Notes under the pieces: generated by a model
What the model was told of the DNA's origin: nothing
The model's input: the letters and a program-made list of their open reading frames with translations, nothing else
Database searches by the model: none
Part shown: positions 16,101-63,011 of the stretch, piece by piece
How the letters are laid out: each line of letters begins with the position of its first letter
Numbering within the stretch: the stretch's first letter is position 1
Position numbers and translations under genes: made by a program
Assembly: GCA_963931925.1 (NCBI GenBank)
Contig: OZ007570.1
Span: 32,603,295-32,667,294 of the forward strand
Reading direction: 5' to 3'
From: Onchidella celtica
Lineage: Eukaryota > Mollusca > Gastropoda > Systellommatophora > Onchidiidae
DNA: 64,000 nt

Positions 16101-19100
16101 GTGTACCCTTGCACAGCCTGTGTTTGGTTCACAACCACTTCATCATGCAAACTTTGAGAAAAGTTCTGTTCAGTACTGCCGTCATTTTTAAAAATACAAT
16201 TTTTGGACAATTTTACAGGAGAGCCAAAAAACTGAATATTGTGACCAAGACAACAAGTTGCACCAGAAGTTATTTTTTACAGGTCAAAGTGATATTTTAC
16301 CGTCTGCTTCAACTCTACATATCGTTTCGTATCGGCTTTAGAGATAATTTAGAAGTTATTATCGAAATTGTATTGTTAAAAATAACGCCTGGTGATGGTT
16401 GCAAATTTAAAAATACAGTATTTTTATGATAACCATTATAACATATCAATTAAAATATCACTAAAAGTACCGTAAATGCCACATACTGCATTTTTCGTAA
16501 GAAAATGCGTAAATAAAGCAAGGTTACATCTTGACAAAAACATCACATATAACTTTCAAATCTCTTTATTTAACTGAAAATACCAACAACGAAGCCTTTT
16601 CTTCAACATAGACGATCAGTATAGGTTAACACATAAAAGTTTTGATTGATCTTAAGCGTATTGCTTTCAAATTCCATAAAACAACTGAAATTTCGAACAA
16701 TGGGGACCTTTTATCCACCAATGGCTGAATCTCTCATTCAGAGGTTAATTGGATTTGCTTAAAGTACAAAACTGGGAAATGAAATAATGAAGAGAGTGAT
16801 GAATAAAAATGATGTATGAGAGTATCTTACTCCGGCAATGCGTGTGTATTTAATTTGTATGCCTGCTTGACAAGATTTAACAGATAGACCTAAATCAAGA
16901 TTTCTGATTGCTGAAAATATAACGTTCAGTCATAGTCAGTAGCCAGATCTTTGCTGGAAGTATTAACAGTCAGATTATGCCAGAACTCGTGTCTGTTCAA
17001 TGGCATGAGTGGCAAGAGTTTGTTAATGATATCAGTTTTCTTGCTTGGGGGCACAACACGTGGCTTTCTCAAACATCTTTCCTCGATCTGAAGCAGGAAA
17101 GACTTCTCCAGGAACTCAAGCCTTGTTTCTTCACCAGCAAATGATGTTTTGTAAAAAAAGACTTTCGCTCCCTCGATGAAAGGCGACAGAAACCATGGAC
17201 GCTAGTTTGGGTCGTTGTTGTAGCTTGTTCAGCACATGGTGGCTCACGCCGGATTGCCAGTCCCGGAAATGATGTGGTTCCATCAAAATGGGTATGCCCT
17301 TTGCCTTTCGCACACAAGAGACGAAGTCATTGAAGTCATATATTTTCCCGAGCCGCTTCATTTCATGTTCTATTCTGGAATGGCAGGCGTCAGCTGACAG
17401 AAAGGTGTGGCCTGGTTGGAAGAATTTGAGGGTGACTTTCTCTGCCTGAACTGCATCGCTGTTCACCAAAACAACAAGCATCGAAAAAAGTGTCCAGTTT
17501 TTATTTTGGCCACTGCAGTTGTCTAACCACAGCACTATTTCATCCTCATCGCGAACTTTCTAGCAAGAATTGATGAAATGCGGATGTTATGTCTTCATTC
17601 TTGCGTGCAGACACACCTTCATGCCACAAAGCAGCAAAATTGGGTTTTCCTTTAGAGACTGCTGCGAATGTCTCGTTGAAAACTGTCAGCCTGCGAGTGA
17701 AAATTGCTGGTTTGAATTGGTCCATACGCGGCAGCATCACTACCTTTTGTAGGTCTGCTGACATGATCAGTTTTCTGGCGGCACCCGAATCTTTCTTGTA
17801 CTTTTGTTGTGCCTCACAGTATTTCTTCTTATGTTGAATGAACTCAGAAATGTCACACACCTCTTCACAAGTGTAAATTCGCTTGTGCAACTCCATCTTT
17901 GAACACATTTCACATTGTTCATGCCCTAAAACATTCATTGATATGTTCATCGCTTTGAAAATTTTTTGGAAGTGGCTGTAAGATAAATATTATCTTAGAT
18001 TAACTGTTTTCAATGTAATGCTTGTGCATTTGTTTAACGGTGATTTCAGGTGGTAAGTACCTGCGCAAAGGAGCATGCTTTCGCCTGTTATGGGAAACGG
18101 TTGGGTTGTAAGTTTCAATATGGGCCTGTACGTCAGCAACGTTGTACACAGGGTTTGATGCTTTTCCTCGCCTGTCTTCCAAAATGGTGTGCGAACGATT
18201 CTGGTCAGATTGTTTTTCTCTAAACATGTGGGTTATCACTATGTCGTTCTTTGGTTTGTAGCCAAGTGTTCCAAAAAAGAAGATTTTGCACACTTCCACT
18301 CTTGTTCCATCCTGTTTCTTTAAAGTATATCTATACGTCGCGGATTTTCTTCCTGGGGCTTTTCTTTTTTGGTGTTGATTTATATAAGAACAGACTCCAT
18401 GATGAACATCTTTTGCGCGCTGTATTCTGGTGCCCAATAACGTTCATTTATCTCTTTTTGCAACGATCCCTGAATCTGCTCGTTGCACTTGAGCTTTCGC
18501 TTGCAGTCGTTGCCGCATCCAGGTCTTACAGCATGAAACAATTTTGTCTTGTTTTCTTTGTTTTCGTTCATGTCGCCGTTCTCCCTTAGATTTTCGCTTT
18601 TTCTGTGGGCAACTGTCACTTTTATTTTGAGTACTCTGGCCTGTGTCTTGGGAGATTCCTTGTGTTGAAGATGATGGAATGCCTGCATTATCTGCACTGC
18701 ATGTGCCACCAACAGGCTGGGTGTCTGTGTCCTTCAATGTGGGTTTGGACTTCTTGCGAGGAGTGCGCTTGGGCGATGGATCGCTTTCATCGGAACTCGA
18801 GGCGAAATCATCTTTCGAAGGTTCCCAGGTAGCATCTCTATCGCTGTTGTCAAGCTCGTCATCTGATTAGTGAATATTCCAGTTTGATTTCAGTGCAGCA
18901 ATACGTTGGATTTTTTGTTGAGCACGTTGACGCTGTGCGTTTACTTGAAAGTTCAACGCTTGCAATTCACTCAAGTTTATGTCCATAGAGTCATCAAAGT
19001 CGTCGCCGCTATTCATCTGCAAAGTAGACGAATAGATTAATTACTGATAAGATGCGTGCTCCTGCAACTTTGTGAATTATTCATTTTCATTTGAATTTGA

Positions 19101-19529
19101 GTTTAATGTCCCTCCTTGCGCAGAATATGTTACTTGAGCGAAAAGGCTATCTAGACATGTTAACATGCTGCCACACATGTGACATACGTCAATATAGGTG
19201 AGCAAAAGCTCGGGGGGAGGGAGAGCCCTAAGATGACAGTTTTAAGAGAAAATAAGTATTAGGCGGACCAAGGTTGTAGTGCCTAGTTAGTGCTCAGGAA
19301 AGCAAAGCGGGAGTGAAAGAAGGAACAAAGAAAAATGATCAAGATGAGACTAGAACCCGCGACCTCTGCTACGGCACCCGTCGCCCTGCCAAGAAGAAAA
19401 CAGATCGCTTAACCGTTCGGCAACTCCGTCTTTCAAAAAAAGAAACATGTGACATACGCATCCTATGCAGCCATAGTGATACTAACACCAAACCTAGCAG
19501 TCCTAGCTGCTCGTTTGTGTCAGGTGCCT

Positions 19530-19563
<34 letters not shown>

Positions 19564-21083
19564 TTTCTTTATCGACTTATTAGTTAATTAATGAATAAAA
19601 TAATAAAAACATACAACTTGCCTCTGCTTGTCCATTCATGTCCTTCACTTCACGAGGATCTGGAGTCAGCGAAACAATGCTTGTCATCGACAGTGATCAG
19701 AACTCAATGGCCGTTTCATCAGAAAGCGCGCGAAATAATAGTTGCTATTTCTAGGGCCTATAGTAAGCCCTAAAAATAGCGACTAAAAATGCCGCATTGC
19801 AGCAATGACAGTATATGCTCATCGTTTTCTTCATTAAATATGATATTTTATTGGGACCGGCAATGGTGTATTCTTTTCAAAACTACAGTATGTGAGCATG
19901 TACTGTATTTTTTATAATACGTATTTCGCAAGTTCTTTTAAAAAATACCGTATGTGAGCATGTACTGTATTTTTGATAATATGAGCTTCACATGATGTCT
20001 TTTTATTGATAACTTTTAAAAAATACCGTATGTGAGCATATACTGTATTTTTGATAATATGAGCTTCACATGCTGTATTTTTATTGATAACTGGTGCACA
20101 ATCTCAAAAACAGTATATATACAAATTCAGACACAGCTATGTCATTGTTAATGATAAAGGGAAGAAACTAAGAGCAAAAAAAATGAGTCATGTCTCGGTC
20201 CTTCACGTGGGTATAAAATGTCAATTTAGCCCCAAACAATATACTGTATTTTTGAAAATGACGGCAGAGTAATATTCATGCTCATTGGTAACAAAGACGG
20301 TTTCTTGTAATTTTATATAACAGATAAAAATAGATTTCAAGTTGGCATGCAGAATTATTTAGCTTGTGAGTGTCAAGATATTTGCTAGTGTCTCTGTTTG
20401 CCTGTACTCCATGGGTGAAAGTGACTTTTCCATTTGTGCGCCGGAGGTTGGTGGGCGCTTCTACTCTAGGGTTTCCTTCTGTCCTATCGTTCTGCTACAT
20501 TTTGTCCACGTCTTCCTTCTTCCTAGCACAATATGGCCGTTATCGTGTCAACGTGCTTTCTCTAAACTTAATCTCGAATTTCATTTGTACATTTCATCAG
20601 AGGCAACATGATGAACGCAAAGCCGTTTACGAGAGGAACACCTTGTGGTGGTTGTGAAGGAGATTGGAAGAAATTCTGTTTTGACGGTTTGTGCAGTAAG
20701 TAACTTGTAGTGTCGTGAGTACATGACATTGTACTTACGGTCGGGAATTGAACATGAGGATTTGATCATCAAGAAGTACTAAGTAGTGATATTTTTACAT
20801 AATTACCTAGTAAGCGATTTGTTGCCCACCAGAATAAGATGGGAAAGCCCCATGCTGTTGGTGGCCAAAGGAAACGTAACAGAGAATTTTCAGGTTATGT
20901 AACCCGGTAAAGCAGTCAATACAAAATAATTATGTCTTTCCGCTTCTTTCAGAAATTATACAGTACATGTATTTTGTCAATGTGCCACTTTGTAAAATCA
21001 TCCAAATTCCTGCCCAACCAAGCACCAACAAGTATACGTACTGGGCAAGAAATACACACCAGACGTGCCAAAGGAAAAAATAA
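6958..21083 (+). CDS. CAP-superfamily secreted protein gene, six exons
   Basis: Six exons join in frame: 6958-7131, 7737-7875, 14777-14877, 15510-15604, 20601-20695 and, less surely, 20953-21083. All introns are GT/AG and the phases 0, 1, 0, 2 and 1 agree. The product is about 247 residues: a signal peptide, the CAP fold, and a short Cys-containing tail. CAP landmarks are AHNHYRR, a DHSP segment with AGENLW, CGHFTQ followed by VVWSKSYKLGCG, and CNYAPAGN. The family comprises extracellular proteins such as venom-allergen-like, CRISP and PR-1 proteins; no specific ligand or activity can be assigned. Introns 2 and 4 hold large transposons without disturbing the exons. A minus-strand paralogue lies at 47261-50778. 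There is no complete CRISP-type ion-channel-regulatory domain. Confidence 0.85.
7615..7722 (+). repeat. dispersed repeat, copy 1
   Basis: This short repeat has the core CACAATATGGCCGTTATCGT followed by a GTCCACGTGCTTTCTCC block, and is preceded by a C/T-rich stretch. It recurs at 15025, 20480, 34300, 45015 (reverse), 47735 (reverse), 49300 and 50420 (reverse). The family is unknown. It abuts the exon 2 acceptor. Confidence 0.7.
7737..7875 (+). CDS. CAP gene exon 2
   Basis: The acceptor is TGTGTCCAG and the donor GAG/GTAATC. The exon encodes VWNDELEKFADIWVSRC, then DHSPQVERTD and AGENLWMGSPR. This gives the conserved CAP pattern W-L-A-W-C, HS and GENL. It ends in phase 1. Confidence 0.85.
8031..8240 (-). 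repeat. 3' LTR of Ty3/gypsy copy B
   Basis: Starts TGATATGGAT and ends TTACAACA. It is nearly identical to the right LTR at 13147-13356. The same length of 210 bp and the flanking GTAAT repeat fix the boundary. Confidence 0.93.
8241..8253 (-). other. polypurine tract of copy B
   Basis: Read on the minus strand the sequence GAGGGGGGAAGAA immediately precedes the 3' LTR. This is the expected position of the plus-strand primer site for reverse transcription. Confidence 0.75.
8435..9501 (+). mobile_element. solo LTR of the Gmr1-like family, nested in copy B
   Basis: The LTR begins TGTCACGAGCG and ends GGGATTTGTGACA. It aligns, in opposite orientation, along its length with the LTRs at 21620-22810 and 28832-30023. 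The 5-bp duplication ATAAG flanks it exactly (8430-8434 and 9502-9506). No internal sequence remains, so it is the product of LTR-LTR recombination. It split the 3' end of the pol frame of copy B. Confidence 0.94.
9433..9942 (-). pseudogene. chimeric frame: integrase C-terminus plus antisense solo LTR
   Basis: The first part, downstream of 9942, encodes the C-terminal integrase segment (RRNVRTSKYDPLVDEVELL and a Pro/Thr-rich tail). After 9502 the frame runs into the inserted LTR in antisense and gains about 22 residues before a stop. The chimera is a by-product of the insertion and has no supported function. Confidence 0.8.
13147..13356 (-). repeat. 5' LTR of Ty3/gypsy copy B
   Basis: Starts TGATACGGAT and ends CATAACA, 210 bp, followed by the GTAAT target-site duplication. 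The leader to the gag ATG is 19 bases. I could not match that leader to a standard tRNA primer-binding site. Confidence 0.93.
13362..14776. other. remainder of CAP intron 2, no gene
   Basis: I see no coding sequence. A degenerate GAGTTCCCGGCGGTGCTC block near 14061-14078 resembles the end of the insertion at 47972-48729. A short ATTATC repeat lies near 14331-14352. Confidence 0.5.
14777..14877 (+). CDS. CAP gene exon 3
   Basis: The acceptor is GTCTTTTAG and the donor CAG/GTAGGA. Joined to exon 2 it encodes EFNYTDLVRSWYDEIKNFD and then ECSGVCGHFTQ. The CGHFTQ box carries the His of the conserved CAP cavity. It ends in phase 0. Confidence 0.88.
15025..15103 (+). repeat. dispersed repeat, copy 2
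   Basis: Contains CACGATATGGTCGTTATAGT and GACGTGCTTTCTCC. It has its homologue at the matching position of the other arm (50420-50505), so it was present before the duplication. Confidence 0.7.
15510..15604 (+). CDS. CAP gene exon 4
   Basis: The acceptor is CTACCGTAG and the donor AGC/GTAAGT. It encodes VVWSKSYKLGCG, a GCPSG turn and FSCNYAP, the last two beta strands of the CAP fold. It ends in phase 2. Confidence 0.88.
15605..16171. other. 5' part of CAP intron 4, no gene
   Basis: No coding sequence is supported. Its last 120 bases (16055-16175) align with the reverse complement of about 48768-48890 and form the left flank of the transposon insertion site. Confidence 0.55.
16930..19016 (-). 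pseudogene. DUF7869-like (DNCxGQNKN) protein, candidate transposase, broken
   Basis: The frame begins at an ATG at 19014-19016 (MNSGDDFDD) and ends at TGA 16930-16932 after LATDYD. In order it shows an acidic/Lys-rich N-terminus, a short Cys block (CGNDCKRKLKCNEQ), RVEVCKIFFFGTLGYK, LRRYLPPEITVKQMHKHYI, a CEMC knuckle, LWLDNCSGQNKNW, PGHTFLSADACH and a C-terminal LLPLMPLNRHEFW. The DNC and GHTxxxxD boxes look like acidic catalytic positions of an RNase H-like fold; that is inference. Breaks: an in-frame TAA near 18869, a frame change near 18500, another between 18437 and 18380, a stop at 18000-18002 with a 27-base gap, a frame change near 17540 and another near 17165. It is the only protein-like content in the TIR element. 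Confidence 0.75.
19345..19440 (-). repeat. tRNA-like SINE head relic
   Basis: Read on the minus strand it contains GTTGCCGAACGGTTAAG, like a tRNA-Leu/Ser A-box region, and GTCGCGGGTTCTAGTC, like a B-box. The spacing suits a tRNA-derived promoter. No clear target duplication was found, and a true tRNA gene is unlikely because the acceptor stem does not pair convincingly. Confidence 0.4.
19528..19571 (+). repeat. CTTT microsatellite
   Basis: An uninterrupted (CTTT)n run, inside the TIR transposon. It may belong to the tail of a small inserted repeat. Confidence 0.85.
19870..20100. repeat. subterminal tandem repeats of the TIR transposon
   Basis: About three copies of a unit near 78 bp built around ACCGTATGTGAGCATGTACT, TGTATTTTTGATAATATGAG and CTTCACATG. 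Single related motifs (ATACAGTATTTTTATGATAA near 16410-16431, TACCGTAAATGCCACATACT near 16470) occur at the other end. Repeats of this kind at both ends are typical transposase-binding regions, which is inference here. Confidence 0.7.
20480..20563 (+). repeat. dispersed repeat, copy 3
   Basis: Contains AGCACAATATGGCCGTTATC and CAACGTGCTTTCTC. It lies 40 bases upstream of the exon 5 acceptor and has its counterpart at 47735-47835 in the inverted arm. Confidence 0.75.
20601..20695 (+). CDS. CAP gene exon 5
   Basis: The acceptor is ATTTCATCAG and the donor TGCA/GTAAGT. After completing the Ala codon it encodes GNMMNAKPF and TRGTPCGGCEGDWKKFC, ending FDGLC. This matches the C-terminal CAP consensus (NYxPxGN...GxPCxxC). 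It ends in phase 1. Confidence 0.85.
20953..21083 (+). CDS. CAP gene exon 6, tentative terminal exon
   Basis: Following the acceptor CTTCTTTCAG the phase-1 frame reads KIIQYMYFVNVPLCKI, continues for 42 residues and stops at TAA 21081-21083. The same acceptor and the start of the same frame (KIIQYMYLV, then CKI) are conserved in the minus-strand paralogue at 47261-47325, which supports it as a real exon. The two tails differ after the second Cys because of indels. Nothing in the family predicts this tail. Confidence 0.5.
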
Positions 21084-60439: not shown

Positions 60440-63011
60440 ATGGCTGCCAGAACAGCTCATCGGTCCGAGCGAACTCGTGAACAAGACATTGCTGATCACC
60501 TATACTCCCTGGAACGCCTTGGAATGCATGGTATGGCAGCAGAAGAAGCCCTGAGAGGCGTCATTAGTGATTATTTTATTGCTGACACTGAAGGGTATGA
60601 GGAGGAAGAACAAGAAGAACAAGAGACAACCACACTTGCGGAGGGGAAGACGCCCATCTCAGTGAGCCATGAGCCAACAGGTAGACCTCTAGTAAAAAAA
60701 AAAACCAACCTTTCCAATAGTCCCCAAGCCTCACATGTGTGATGCATGAATCATAAGATGTAAACAACAAACTGAGTATTGTCTTTTTCAGTTATATCTA
60801 GATTAGATCTATTACATTCAACAATGGCATGGCTGGTTGTTGTTGTTTTTCATGACAAGTGTTTCACTTTACTAGATCTAGATCTAGCTGGCTTACCCAA
60901 ACATACTTATTTTGCTAGAACTCCATATACAATTAGTATTTGAGAAGACAGTAAAATTATTATTAGGAAGAAATGATAAAATGTCATTTGCTTGTTACAA
61001 ATAGTAAAATAAAGTGGTGACTGACAGGGTATATCAATAAATGAATAATACACCTACGGCATACACCACCACCCAAAATCACTCCCTCGCAGAACTATCA
61101 AGCATCAGTCTTATTTATTGTTGTTGCTTTCTCATCCAGAACCATGTGATGCAGAAGAAGCCCGTGGAGTGATTGAGGATACGTCTGTTCACCTCATATT
61201 TACTCCTTCATCACCCGATGTCTGTCCTGAGGAGAAAAGTTTTGAATGCCTCTGCCGGTATAACAATGGGAAATCCTGTGGCACTCAATTTCAGGAGGAG
61301 GACATTGATTCCATTCATCTGCAATACTTGGGTCTGTCAAAAGATGAGCTGGACATTGCTGTGATGGAAGACATGTCTTCGGGAATGTACATGGGAAATG
61401 TGGCCCAGAAGTCAAAAAGGGGGCAGCAGACCCAACGTAAGGCCAGAAGAACAGACTTCTATGTGCATGGCCAACAAGTATGCAGGGAATTTTTTTTTAT
61501 ATATATACTCACTGTCTCTCCCTAAGACGTCTGAAAAATCTAGTGCAACATTCTAAAGAGAATGGCCTCGAGCCTCGGATACATGGCAACGTAAAGCGGC
61601 AGCCAGCCCATGCTCTGATGTATGATGACATTCAGGCTGTTTTCACTGTTATTTCTAACTTTGCTGAGGCAAACGCAATTGTTTTGCCTGGACGCCAGCC
61701 TTACAGCTGGAAGACAGACTGCAAACTACTTCCTACCAGTTTCCACAAAAGAGCGAGTACAAAGAACTAGACAACAACACACCAGGGATGAGATGTGTCT
61801 CCCACAGATCGTTTCTGCGCATATGGCAACAGTTGTTACCATTTATCACCAACTTGAAGCCTACTACAGACTTATGCTGGTACTGTCAGCAGAGTCTGTT
61901 CAGCTGCATAGGTGCACAGATTTGCCACTGCATAAGAAGAGCAAAGCAGCACAAGAAATGATGAAACATCTGAGTGACGCTGCTGCAGTGAGATCTTTAT
62001 ATAATTCTGTAGTGAAGGAGGTGAGGCGAAAGTTACCTGCAGGTTCCACCCTGGGAAAACATGACTGTTGTTCTCTAAAGGGCCAACTTCATTATAGCTT
62101 CGACATTGTGCAACAGGTTCATTACCCTTGTTTGACAGCAGCCCGACCCAATATTTTTTAAAACTCCTAGAAAGTGTGGTCTTTTTGGTGTGAATGTGAA
62201 GGACTTACAACACAAATTAATTTCTTATTGGATGAAGCCTGGAATTTTGGAAAAGGTGCAAACTGTGTTGTGTCTTTGCTTCATTTTTTCTTTGAGGAAT
62301 ATGGACTTGGTGAGACAATTGTTGTGGCCAGAACAAGAACAACACCATGCTGCAATATCTTTTGTGGCAGGTGTTGACAGGAAGGCACACTAAAATTACT
62401 GTGTCCTTCTTGTTGGCTGGCCACACCAACTTCGCGTGTGATTGGTCCTTTGGTCTCGTCAAGAGATCATTTAGAAAAACTAAAATTGGATGCTTACAAG
62501 ATATTGCACATGTTGTACAGAAATCTTCAGCTGTAAACAGTTCACAGTTTTGCATCACTGAGCAAGGAGAAATGCTTGTCACGGCATATGACTGAACAAC
62601 TTTTCTTGATAAATATTTTACAAAATTGCCCAAAATTTTATCATTTTATCATTTCCATTTTGAGTCAGGATCTGGATTTGTCGGAGCTCAGGATTTTCGT
62701 ACATCACCCATTCAAAATATTGACCTTGTTAGAGCAAATGCTTCCGAAATAAACCCCTCACATCTTCCAACTGCTCTGACAAATGCAGGCCTTGACTTCA
62801 AAAGGAAGTCCTATTAATTTTGTATAAAGAGATTAGGCCTTTTGTTCCATCTGAACACCAAGACACTATTGCCCCACTTCCTGAGGATCCAGAAGAACCT
62901 GGAACTAGTATTATAAGAGAAGAGCCACTGATGAAAGTGCCTCGTGTGGCAGAAGCTACAGGTCAAGGGAAGGGGAAGGGGAAAGGGAGAGGTAAGGGGA
63001 GAAAGCAGTAA
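60440..63011 (+). pseudogene. DUF7869-like (DNCxGQNKN) gene, two exons visible, frameshifted
   Basis: Exon 1 is 60440-60680 (ATG, acidic N-terminus), joined across a GT/AG intron to an exon from 61140 in phase 1. Landmarks in order: DFYVHGQQVCREFFF, GLEPRIHGN, LMYDDIQAVF, LHYSFDIVQQVHYPC, INFLLDEAWNFGKGAN, FFEEYGLGE, DNCCGQNKNNTMLQYLLW, LLAGHTNFACDWSFGLVK, a region aligned to the family's C-terminal part, and a Lys/Gly-rich tail. Breaks: a shift in a T9 run near 61491, one near 61740, stops near 62158 and 62171, a small deletion just before DNCC at about 62315, and stops near 62593 and 62815. A poly(A) signal AATAAA lies at about 63029. I found no TIRs around it, and the right end may be outside the window. 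The presence of Asp in FDIVQQ, DNCC and GHTxxxxD fits an RNase H-like triad; that is inference. Confidence 0.78.
60681..61139 (+). other. intron of the DNCxGQNKN gene
   Basis: Donor ACAG/GTAGAC and acceptor TCTCATCCAG. Joining the two exons keeps phase 1 and gives a continuous SHEPTEPCDAEEARG. No other feature is seen in it. Confidence 0.65.

Follow-up and report, generated by a model that had tools for sequence, protein, structure and literature searches.

The window analysed here, a 64,000-nucleotide stretch of the Onchidella celtica genome, contains a transposon with terminal inverted repeats (TIRs) at 16176-20267, within which lies a single broken DUF7869 gene. It is interpreted as a cut-and-paste DNA transposon, of which this copy is dead. 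The following features were identified (window coordinates, with strand where one applies):

16172..16175: target-site duplication AGTA, left, from flank comparison
16176..16198 (+): left TIR, CTGCCGTC..., at the gene-3' end; agrees with the right TIR at 22 of 23 bases
16211..16234 (+): conserved one-sided subterminal motif TTTTACAGGAGAGCCAAAAAACTG, 35 bp inside the gene-3' end (42 bp in the C2 relative)
16926..19040 (-): broken gene for the probable transposase (DUF7869, PF25273), split into five collinear pieces by four changes of frame (18535 to 16929), with an uncertain 5' limit (to 19040)
17389..17391 (-): codon of the third conserved aspartate (GHTFLSAD), conserved across groups
17521..17523 (-): codon of the second conserved aspartate (LDNCSGQNKN), conserved across groups
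17753..17755 (-): codon of the first conserved aspartate (SADLQKV), invariant across groups
19175..19458: later nested repeat, body 19189-19444, flanked by 14-bp direct repeats ACATGTGACATACG; foreign to the original element
19873..20090: subterminal direct repeats, three copies of 78 nt, at the gene-5' end
20245..20267 (-): right TIR, the gene-5' end of the element; 22/23 against the left TIR
20268..20271: target-site duplication AGTA, right, from flank comparison

The limits of the element hold as proposed in an earlier sequence-only reading of this DNA. The TIRs are 23 bp long with one mismatch, and the flanks are identical across exactly 4 bp and no further, in agreement with the perfect AGTA duplication claimed there. 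The subterminal repeats of that reading correspond to the three 78-nt copies, and its one large broken DNCxGQNKN gene to the five pieces with their PF25273 match.

A tblastn search with a relative from the same genome (L019, on contig C18) placed the gene pieces at approximately 18535-18386, 18350-18015, 17989-17561, 17559-17146 and 17180-16929. As some neighbouring pieces overlap or stand 1-2 bases apart, at least those breaks are frameshifts and not introns, and the damage shown in the gene consists of frame changes, not in-frame stops. The piece at 17131-17559 matched the Pfam DUF7869 model with an E-value of 4.9e-11 (43 bits, curated cut-off 26). All three aspartate codons are intact in this copy. 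Named protein relatives of the gene include those of the sea slugs Plakobranchus and Elysia.

The nested repeat is a later insertion; it has its own 14-bp direct repeats and is missing from the C2 and C7 relatives. Among 40 copies scored in the genome, 39 were further near-full copies with 92-95% identity and common ends. The repeat is SINE-like; a tRNA gene search of 19175-19458 gave none. Separately, an Rfam scan at a permissive threshold gave two matches, which fell far under their gathering scores and were taken as chance.

Related elements in the host genome and in bacteria

The genome searched comprised 1.14 Gb in 43 contigs. The protein search scored 150 of 435 candidate places, giving at least 150 DUF7869 matches. 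For 12 elements that carry the gene, the analysis looked for both ends (the window element, seven that were extended, two complete in their loci, and the extended C2 and C7 relatives), and the remaining loci were scanned for the 7-base tip only. Both ends were found in eight of the 12, with the duplications AGTA (window), AACA (C18), ATCT (C15), AACT (C1), TATT (C9), AATA (C5), ATTT (C7a) and AATA (C7b); the second end was sought and not found in L018, L021, L036 and L039. All eight carry the tip CTGCCGT at both ends, within TIRs of 23-32 bp with 0-3 mismatches. An exact adjacent 4-bp duplication was present in 8/8, compared with 133 of 21,367 (0.6%) at other offsets.

The C18 element (C18:4498454-4502901; 4,448 bp) has a perfect 30-bp TIR and an open frame of 630 codons that spans the whole conserved part, holds all three aspartates and encodes a protein 49% identical to the window piece. 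A 109-codon frame directly upstream, in another phase, resembles the acidic N terminus of relatives, so the 630-codon frame may lack its N terminus and not represent the whole gene. There is no other frame of at least 200 codons in this element; frames of 186 and 127 codons are present on the opposite strand. Since the eight gene-bearing elements with both ends known have common CTGCCGT tips and exact 4-bp duplications, and the C18 frame is open, the gene is not the passenger of a single copy. The genome search with element ends and the test for 4-bp duplications that the sequence-only reading had suggested thus gave exact duplications throughout these eight elements, and no element with the same TIRs and another transposase was found, with 12 elements followed towards both ends.

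With the window left (gene-3') end as the query, C2 (88%) was the single long relative, and a further 11 matches spanned just 34-38 bases. The right (gene-5') end gave 13 further places, besides itself and one internal repeat of its own. Seven of these 13 were read and have only ~260 bp of the gene-5' end in common. An exact 4-bp duplication was seen in four of the seven short copies (ACTA, TATT, TATA and GATA), which is weaker evidence and partly circular, as the left ends were set partly by the duplication itself; in one copy (L012) the duplication was read by eye and the tip base is altered. Four of the seven short copies look mobilised.

In a second clade, SDGCxxQNKN replaces LDNCxGQNKN in the gene, and the elements are 4,238 bp long with CGTCG tips. 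The gene of L049 has 766 codons from the first start codon, and the same open frame of 769 codons is present at six places in the genome. Among the 40 copies scored per end, identity was 96-100% on the left and 91-100% on the right, with sharp boundaries. Exact 4-bp duplications were present in 9 of 11 copies inspected (six ATAT, plus ATGT, CCAT and AAAT); the two inspected without one were L049 and L084/L085. Ends were also sought for the SDGC-type locus L050, and none were convincing. At that locus (L050:5104-6444), a frame of 447 codons that encodes a hAT dimerisation domain (PF05699, E 5.4e-6) adjoins an open SDGC-type DUF7869 gene and could be a neighbour, a fusion or a nested element.

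A scan of prokaryote contigs gave seven loci, and a draw of 389 genomes from one class gave seven with a match, two of them already known, making 12 bacterial loci in all. One of these, L102, may repeat L091; each has a 577-codon DUF7869 frame and they are possibly one record. The complete bacterial frames have 635-731 codons, and those scanned match PF25273 (best E 4e-25), a model matched by the window, mollusc and bacterial proteins. Both ends were found at 6/12 loci, with TIRs that mostly begin GGGG. In five of these six elements, a DUF7869 frame of 635-668 codons occupies most of the element; in L089 the frame has only 310 codons. The duplications were exact in three of the six (ATTT, AATT and AAAT), and the flanks were unequal yet AT-rich in the other three (AAAT/ATTT once and AAAT/ATAT twice). 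These ends were first sought with a duplication required, and the tips scored later were placed by eye at GGG(G); an end search without a required duplication gave TIRs again at L088, L090 and L093, as well as at L103 and L104, and missed L089. L092 was excluded from the count as a contig with inverted ends (an assembly artefact), as were L091, L094, L100, L101 and L102, in which no end pair was seen.

A third protein search gave 852 relatives. The 120 listed have 515-664 residues, and most of them sit on contigs of less than 3.1 kb, near the size of one such element; few of the 120 carry an organism name, and where one is given it is a bacterium. The search was partly aimed at a slime-mould Sola2 protein, which among the matches listed was neither found nor excluded. 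NCBIfam gave no credible model match for the four bacterial and two animal proteins tried.

Bacterial-type genes are also present in the host genome. The loci L106-L111 had no convincing ends, with short inverted repeats only at L108 and L109. Six bacterial-type matches (C10:37554816, C1:95406910, C15:22718393, C18:14570730, C13:26731191 and C17:19035269) have equal open frames of 491 codons, which suggests a young family of a bacterial-type element. In a tree of 34 proteins chosen by hand, the window type (15 rows) and the SDGC type (2 rows) were each set off by a well-supported branch, and 14 bacterial-type rows fell on the opposite side of the drawn root together with the host genes L106 and L107; the tree carries a long-branch warning and its inner order is unsure. 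The window itself holds a second broken DUF7869 gene at 61268-62874 (+), which is of the bacterial type (GHTxFxxDxxFGLxK). A convincing TIR was sought for it across 58.5-64 kb and none was found; it matched a Desulfocicer protein by tblastn with E 6.7e-55, in pieces 25-41% identical.

Conserved residues and a one-sided terminal motif

In an alignment of seven divergent proteins, four bacterial and three animal, the only invariant aspartates were D356, D435 and D477 of L090 (in SADLQ/SWDF, DNC and GHTxxxxD, respectively); the glutamates E277 and E401 were likewise invariant. A profile-profile comparison of 125 animal-type with 75 bacterial-type proteins aligned the same three aspartates (99.6%, E 8e-25), which are kept from the bacterial to the mollusc elements. 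At least 90% of the 125 animal-type proteins have a glutamate seven residues past the third aspartate, which the bacterial rows lack, so the residue set is DDD and not DDE. The aspartates of the DNC and GHTxxxxD boxes had been proposed earlier as candidate catalytic positions, and both are conserved; that candidate set was incomplete, as the upstream aspartate in SADLQKV was not listed.

By their pattern of conservation, the three aspartates would form an RNase H-like DDD metal site, and the DUF7869 core is predicted to adopt an RNase H fold. A sequence search of the PDB with a profile of 125 relatives matched no chain. The ISAzo13 DDE model gave a weak match in 12 of the 75 bacterial-type proteins (best E 0.0019), but it hardly stands out, since 11 and 8 of these 75 proteins also matched two Pfam models that are unrelated to it.

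In C15, C1, C5, C7a, C2 and L035, a 24-nt motif, TTTTACAGGAGARSCRAAAAACTG, starts precisely 42 bp in from the gene-3' end, with 0-2 mismatches. The L049 family has it at the same offset with four mismatches, despite TIRs unlike those of the window clade. In the window copy it lies at 35 bp with no mismatches, 7 bp fewer than in the C2 relative. The motif was not present in the gene-5' ends of the nine elements tested (best match 10-13 mismatches, 9/9). That two clades with unlike TIRs both have this motif at a set spacing from the gene-3' end is a new observation.

Across the genome there were 1,188 matches at no more than one mismatch, compared with none for the reversed pattern. Twenty sites, hand-picked from the listed places, were read: the base at -42 is C in 17/20, AWWT occupies -46 to -43 in 7/20, and the sequences beyond -46 look unrelated between sites. 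At six sites read before these (L003-L008, from the short left-end matches), the base at -42 is C in 5/6. Given the C at -42 and the unrelated flanks beyond, most of the motif sites read look like transposon ends. The C9/C7b family lacks the motif, as do all seven short copies, including the four that look mobilised, and C18 has it in weak form (offset 42, eight mismatches; shuffles were equally good in 1.4%); it is therefore not strictly required. In the six bacterial elements the best match had 10-13 mismatches, and the motif was not recognised there.

Probable transposase function and relation to known superfamilies

The DUF7869 protein is very probably the transposase of these elements. 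This is well supported, as the gene-bearing elements have common TIRs and 4-bp duplications, and the frame occupies most of the bacterial insertion sequences. The proposal of the sequence-only reading that the DNCxGQNKN protein is the transposase is thus well supported, and its two aspartates are conserved; its label 'unclassified' is not secured. We consider it highly probable that the element is a dead cut-and-paste transposon with the DUF7869 protein as its transposase. In the mechanism proposed, the transposase core would use its three aspartates as an RNase H-like DDD metal site, and the N-terminal half, with conserved cysteines, would bind the element ends. The protein would cut at the CTGCCGT tip and join the tip with a 4-bp stagger. 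The transposase may also touch the DNA at the motif 42 bp in, approximately four helical turns, and this second contact would distinguish one end from the other.

That DUF7869 is a passenger gene, with an unrelated or host-supplied transposase mobilising the elements, appears very improbable. This explanation would allow for the broken gene of the window copy and for the short copies that have no gene; however, CTGCCGT elements and the CGTCG clade alike carry the gene, which also takes up most of the bacterial insertion sequences, the proteins have three invariant aspartates, and no other frame of at least 200 codons was seen in the C18 element. A less remote alternative concerns the motif, which we read as a probable conserved transposase contact near one end. 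It could instead be an mRNA 3'-end signal or an antisense splicing signal, being confined to the gene-3' side, where the gene strand reads TGTAAAA and the opposite strand TTTTACAG|G. We regard this as unlikely, given the exact 42-bp spacing from tip to motif in families with differing TIRs, and given that the 1,188 motif sites outnumber the DUF7869 matches scored (at least 150, of 435 candidates). The excess of motif sites over scored genes hints that gene-less copies may keep the motif.

Sola reportedly goes back to Bao et al. 2009. In the available part of a published description (PMC10741241), its elements are DDD, with 4-bp duplications, a length of mostly 2-9 kb and TIRs of 11-1124 bp, and occur in bacteria and metazoans. 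The elements studied here are similar in their 4-bp duplications (8/8 in the window group, with ends sought for 12, and 9/11 in the second clade), in their apparent DDD set of three invariant aspartates, in their length, and in their presence in both bacteria and metazoans. For Sola2, the available part of PMC3627910 gives AWWT duplications and an 888-aa transposase in one family, compared with ~630-850 codons here. The AWWT target fits the second clade (7/9 exact duplications are ATAT or AAAT) and the bacterial elements, whereas only 1/8 window-group duplications conforms to it. The one-sided motif at 42 bp is unmentioned for Sola in the available parts of both papers. By comparison with these published descriptions only, the window element most probably belongs to Sola or is its sister; membership is unproven.

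The elements could instead represent a superfamily unnamed in Repbase and linked to an unnamed bacterial insertion sequence family, and not Sola. The word DUF7869 was not found in any paper in the literature search, and the NCBIfam result is likewise in keeping with a family that lacks a name. The available part of PMC10045372, which covers bacterial-eukaryotic transposon links, is without the word Sola and describes nothing resembling the DUF7869 elements. Against this, the Sola features above (PMC10741241) and the fit of Sola2 AWWT to the second clade and the bacterial elements (PMC3627910) make a separate superfamily the less favoured, though still plausible, assignment. A broader suggestion, which we put forward tentatively, is that DUF7869 defines one ancient transposase superfamily, unrecognised so far, whose members include both the GGGG-ended insertion sequences of bacteria and several clades in animals. 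Families of it with changed TIRs and target would keep a 24-nt site for the transposase at precisely 42 bp (~four helical turns) from the gene-3' tip, fixing an asymmetric geometry of the transposition complex.

Pfam PF25273 is the same family; Pfam assigns it no function, and a transposase role is supported here. A literature search with protein motif strings gave no title on transposons among the matches listed. This 'domain of unknown function', found here in molluscs, insects and bacteria, can now carry the label of probable transposase, and many spurious host genes would thereby drop out of annotations. The elements add to the known connections of animal transposons with insertion sequences of bacteria, and the open frames of the second clade, with the spacing-locked site, make the mechanism directly testable.

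Other superfamilies were compared. The target of piggyBac is TTAA, which is not used by the elements here, although the 4-bp duplications are a likeness to piggyBac/IS1380. The termini of piggyBac/IS1380 are 5'-CC..GG-3' (PMC10045372, available part), and those here are CTG..CAG (CTGCCGT tips). Zator/ISAzo13, suggested by the weak DDE matches in 12/75 bacterial-type proteins, has 3-bp duplications according to the same source, and the flanks here agree over 4 bp in 8/8. AcademX has 3- or 4-bp duplications and a nuclease encoded beside the transposase (PMC10045372); the 4-bp duplications are a likeness, and no nuclease was recognised here, a second frame of at least 200 codons being absent from C18. 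AcademX is less clearly set apart from these elements than the other superfamilies compared. Zisupton (KDZ) is likewise a large eukaryotic TIR transposon, with 8-bp duplications in the available part of PMC12730594, compared with exactly 4 bp in the elements described here.
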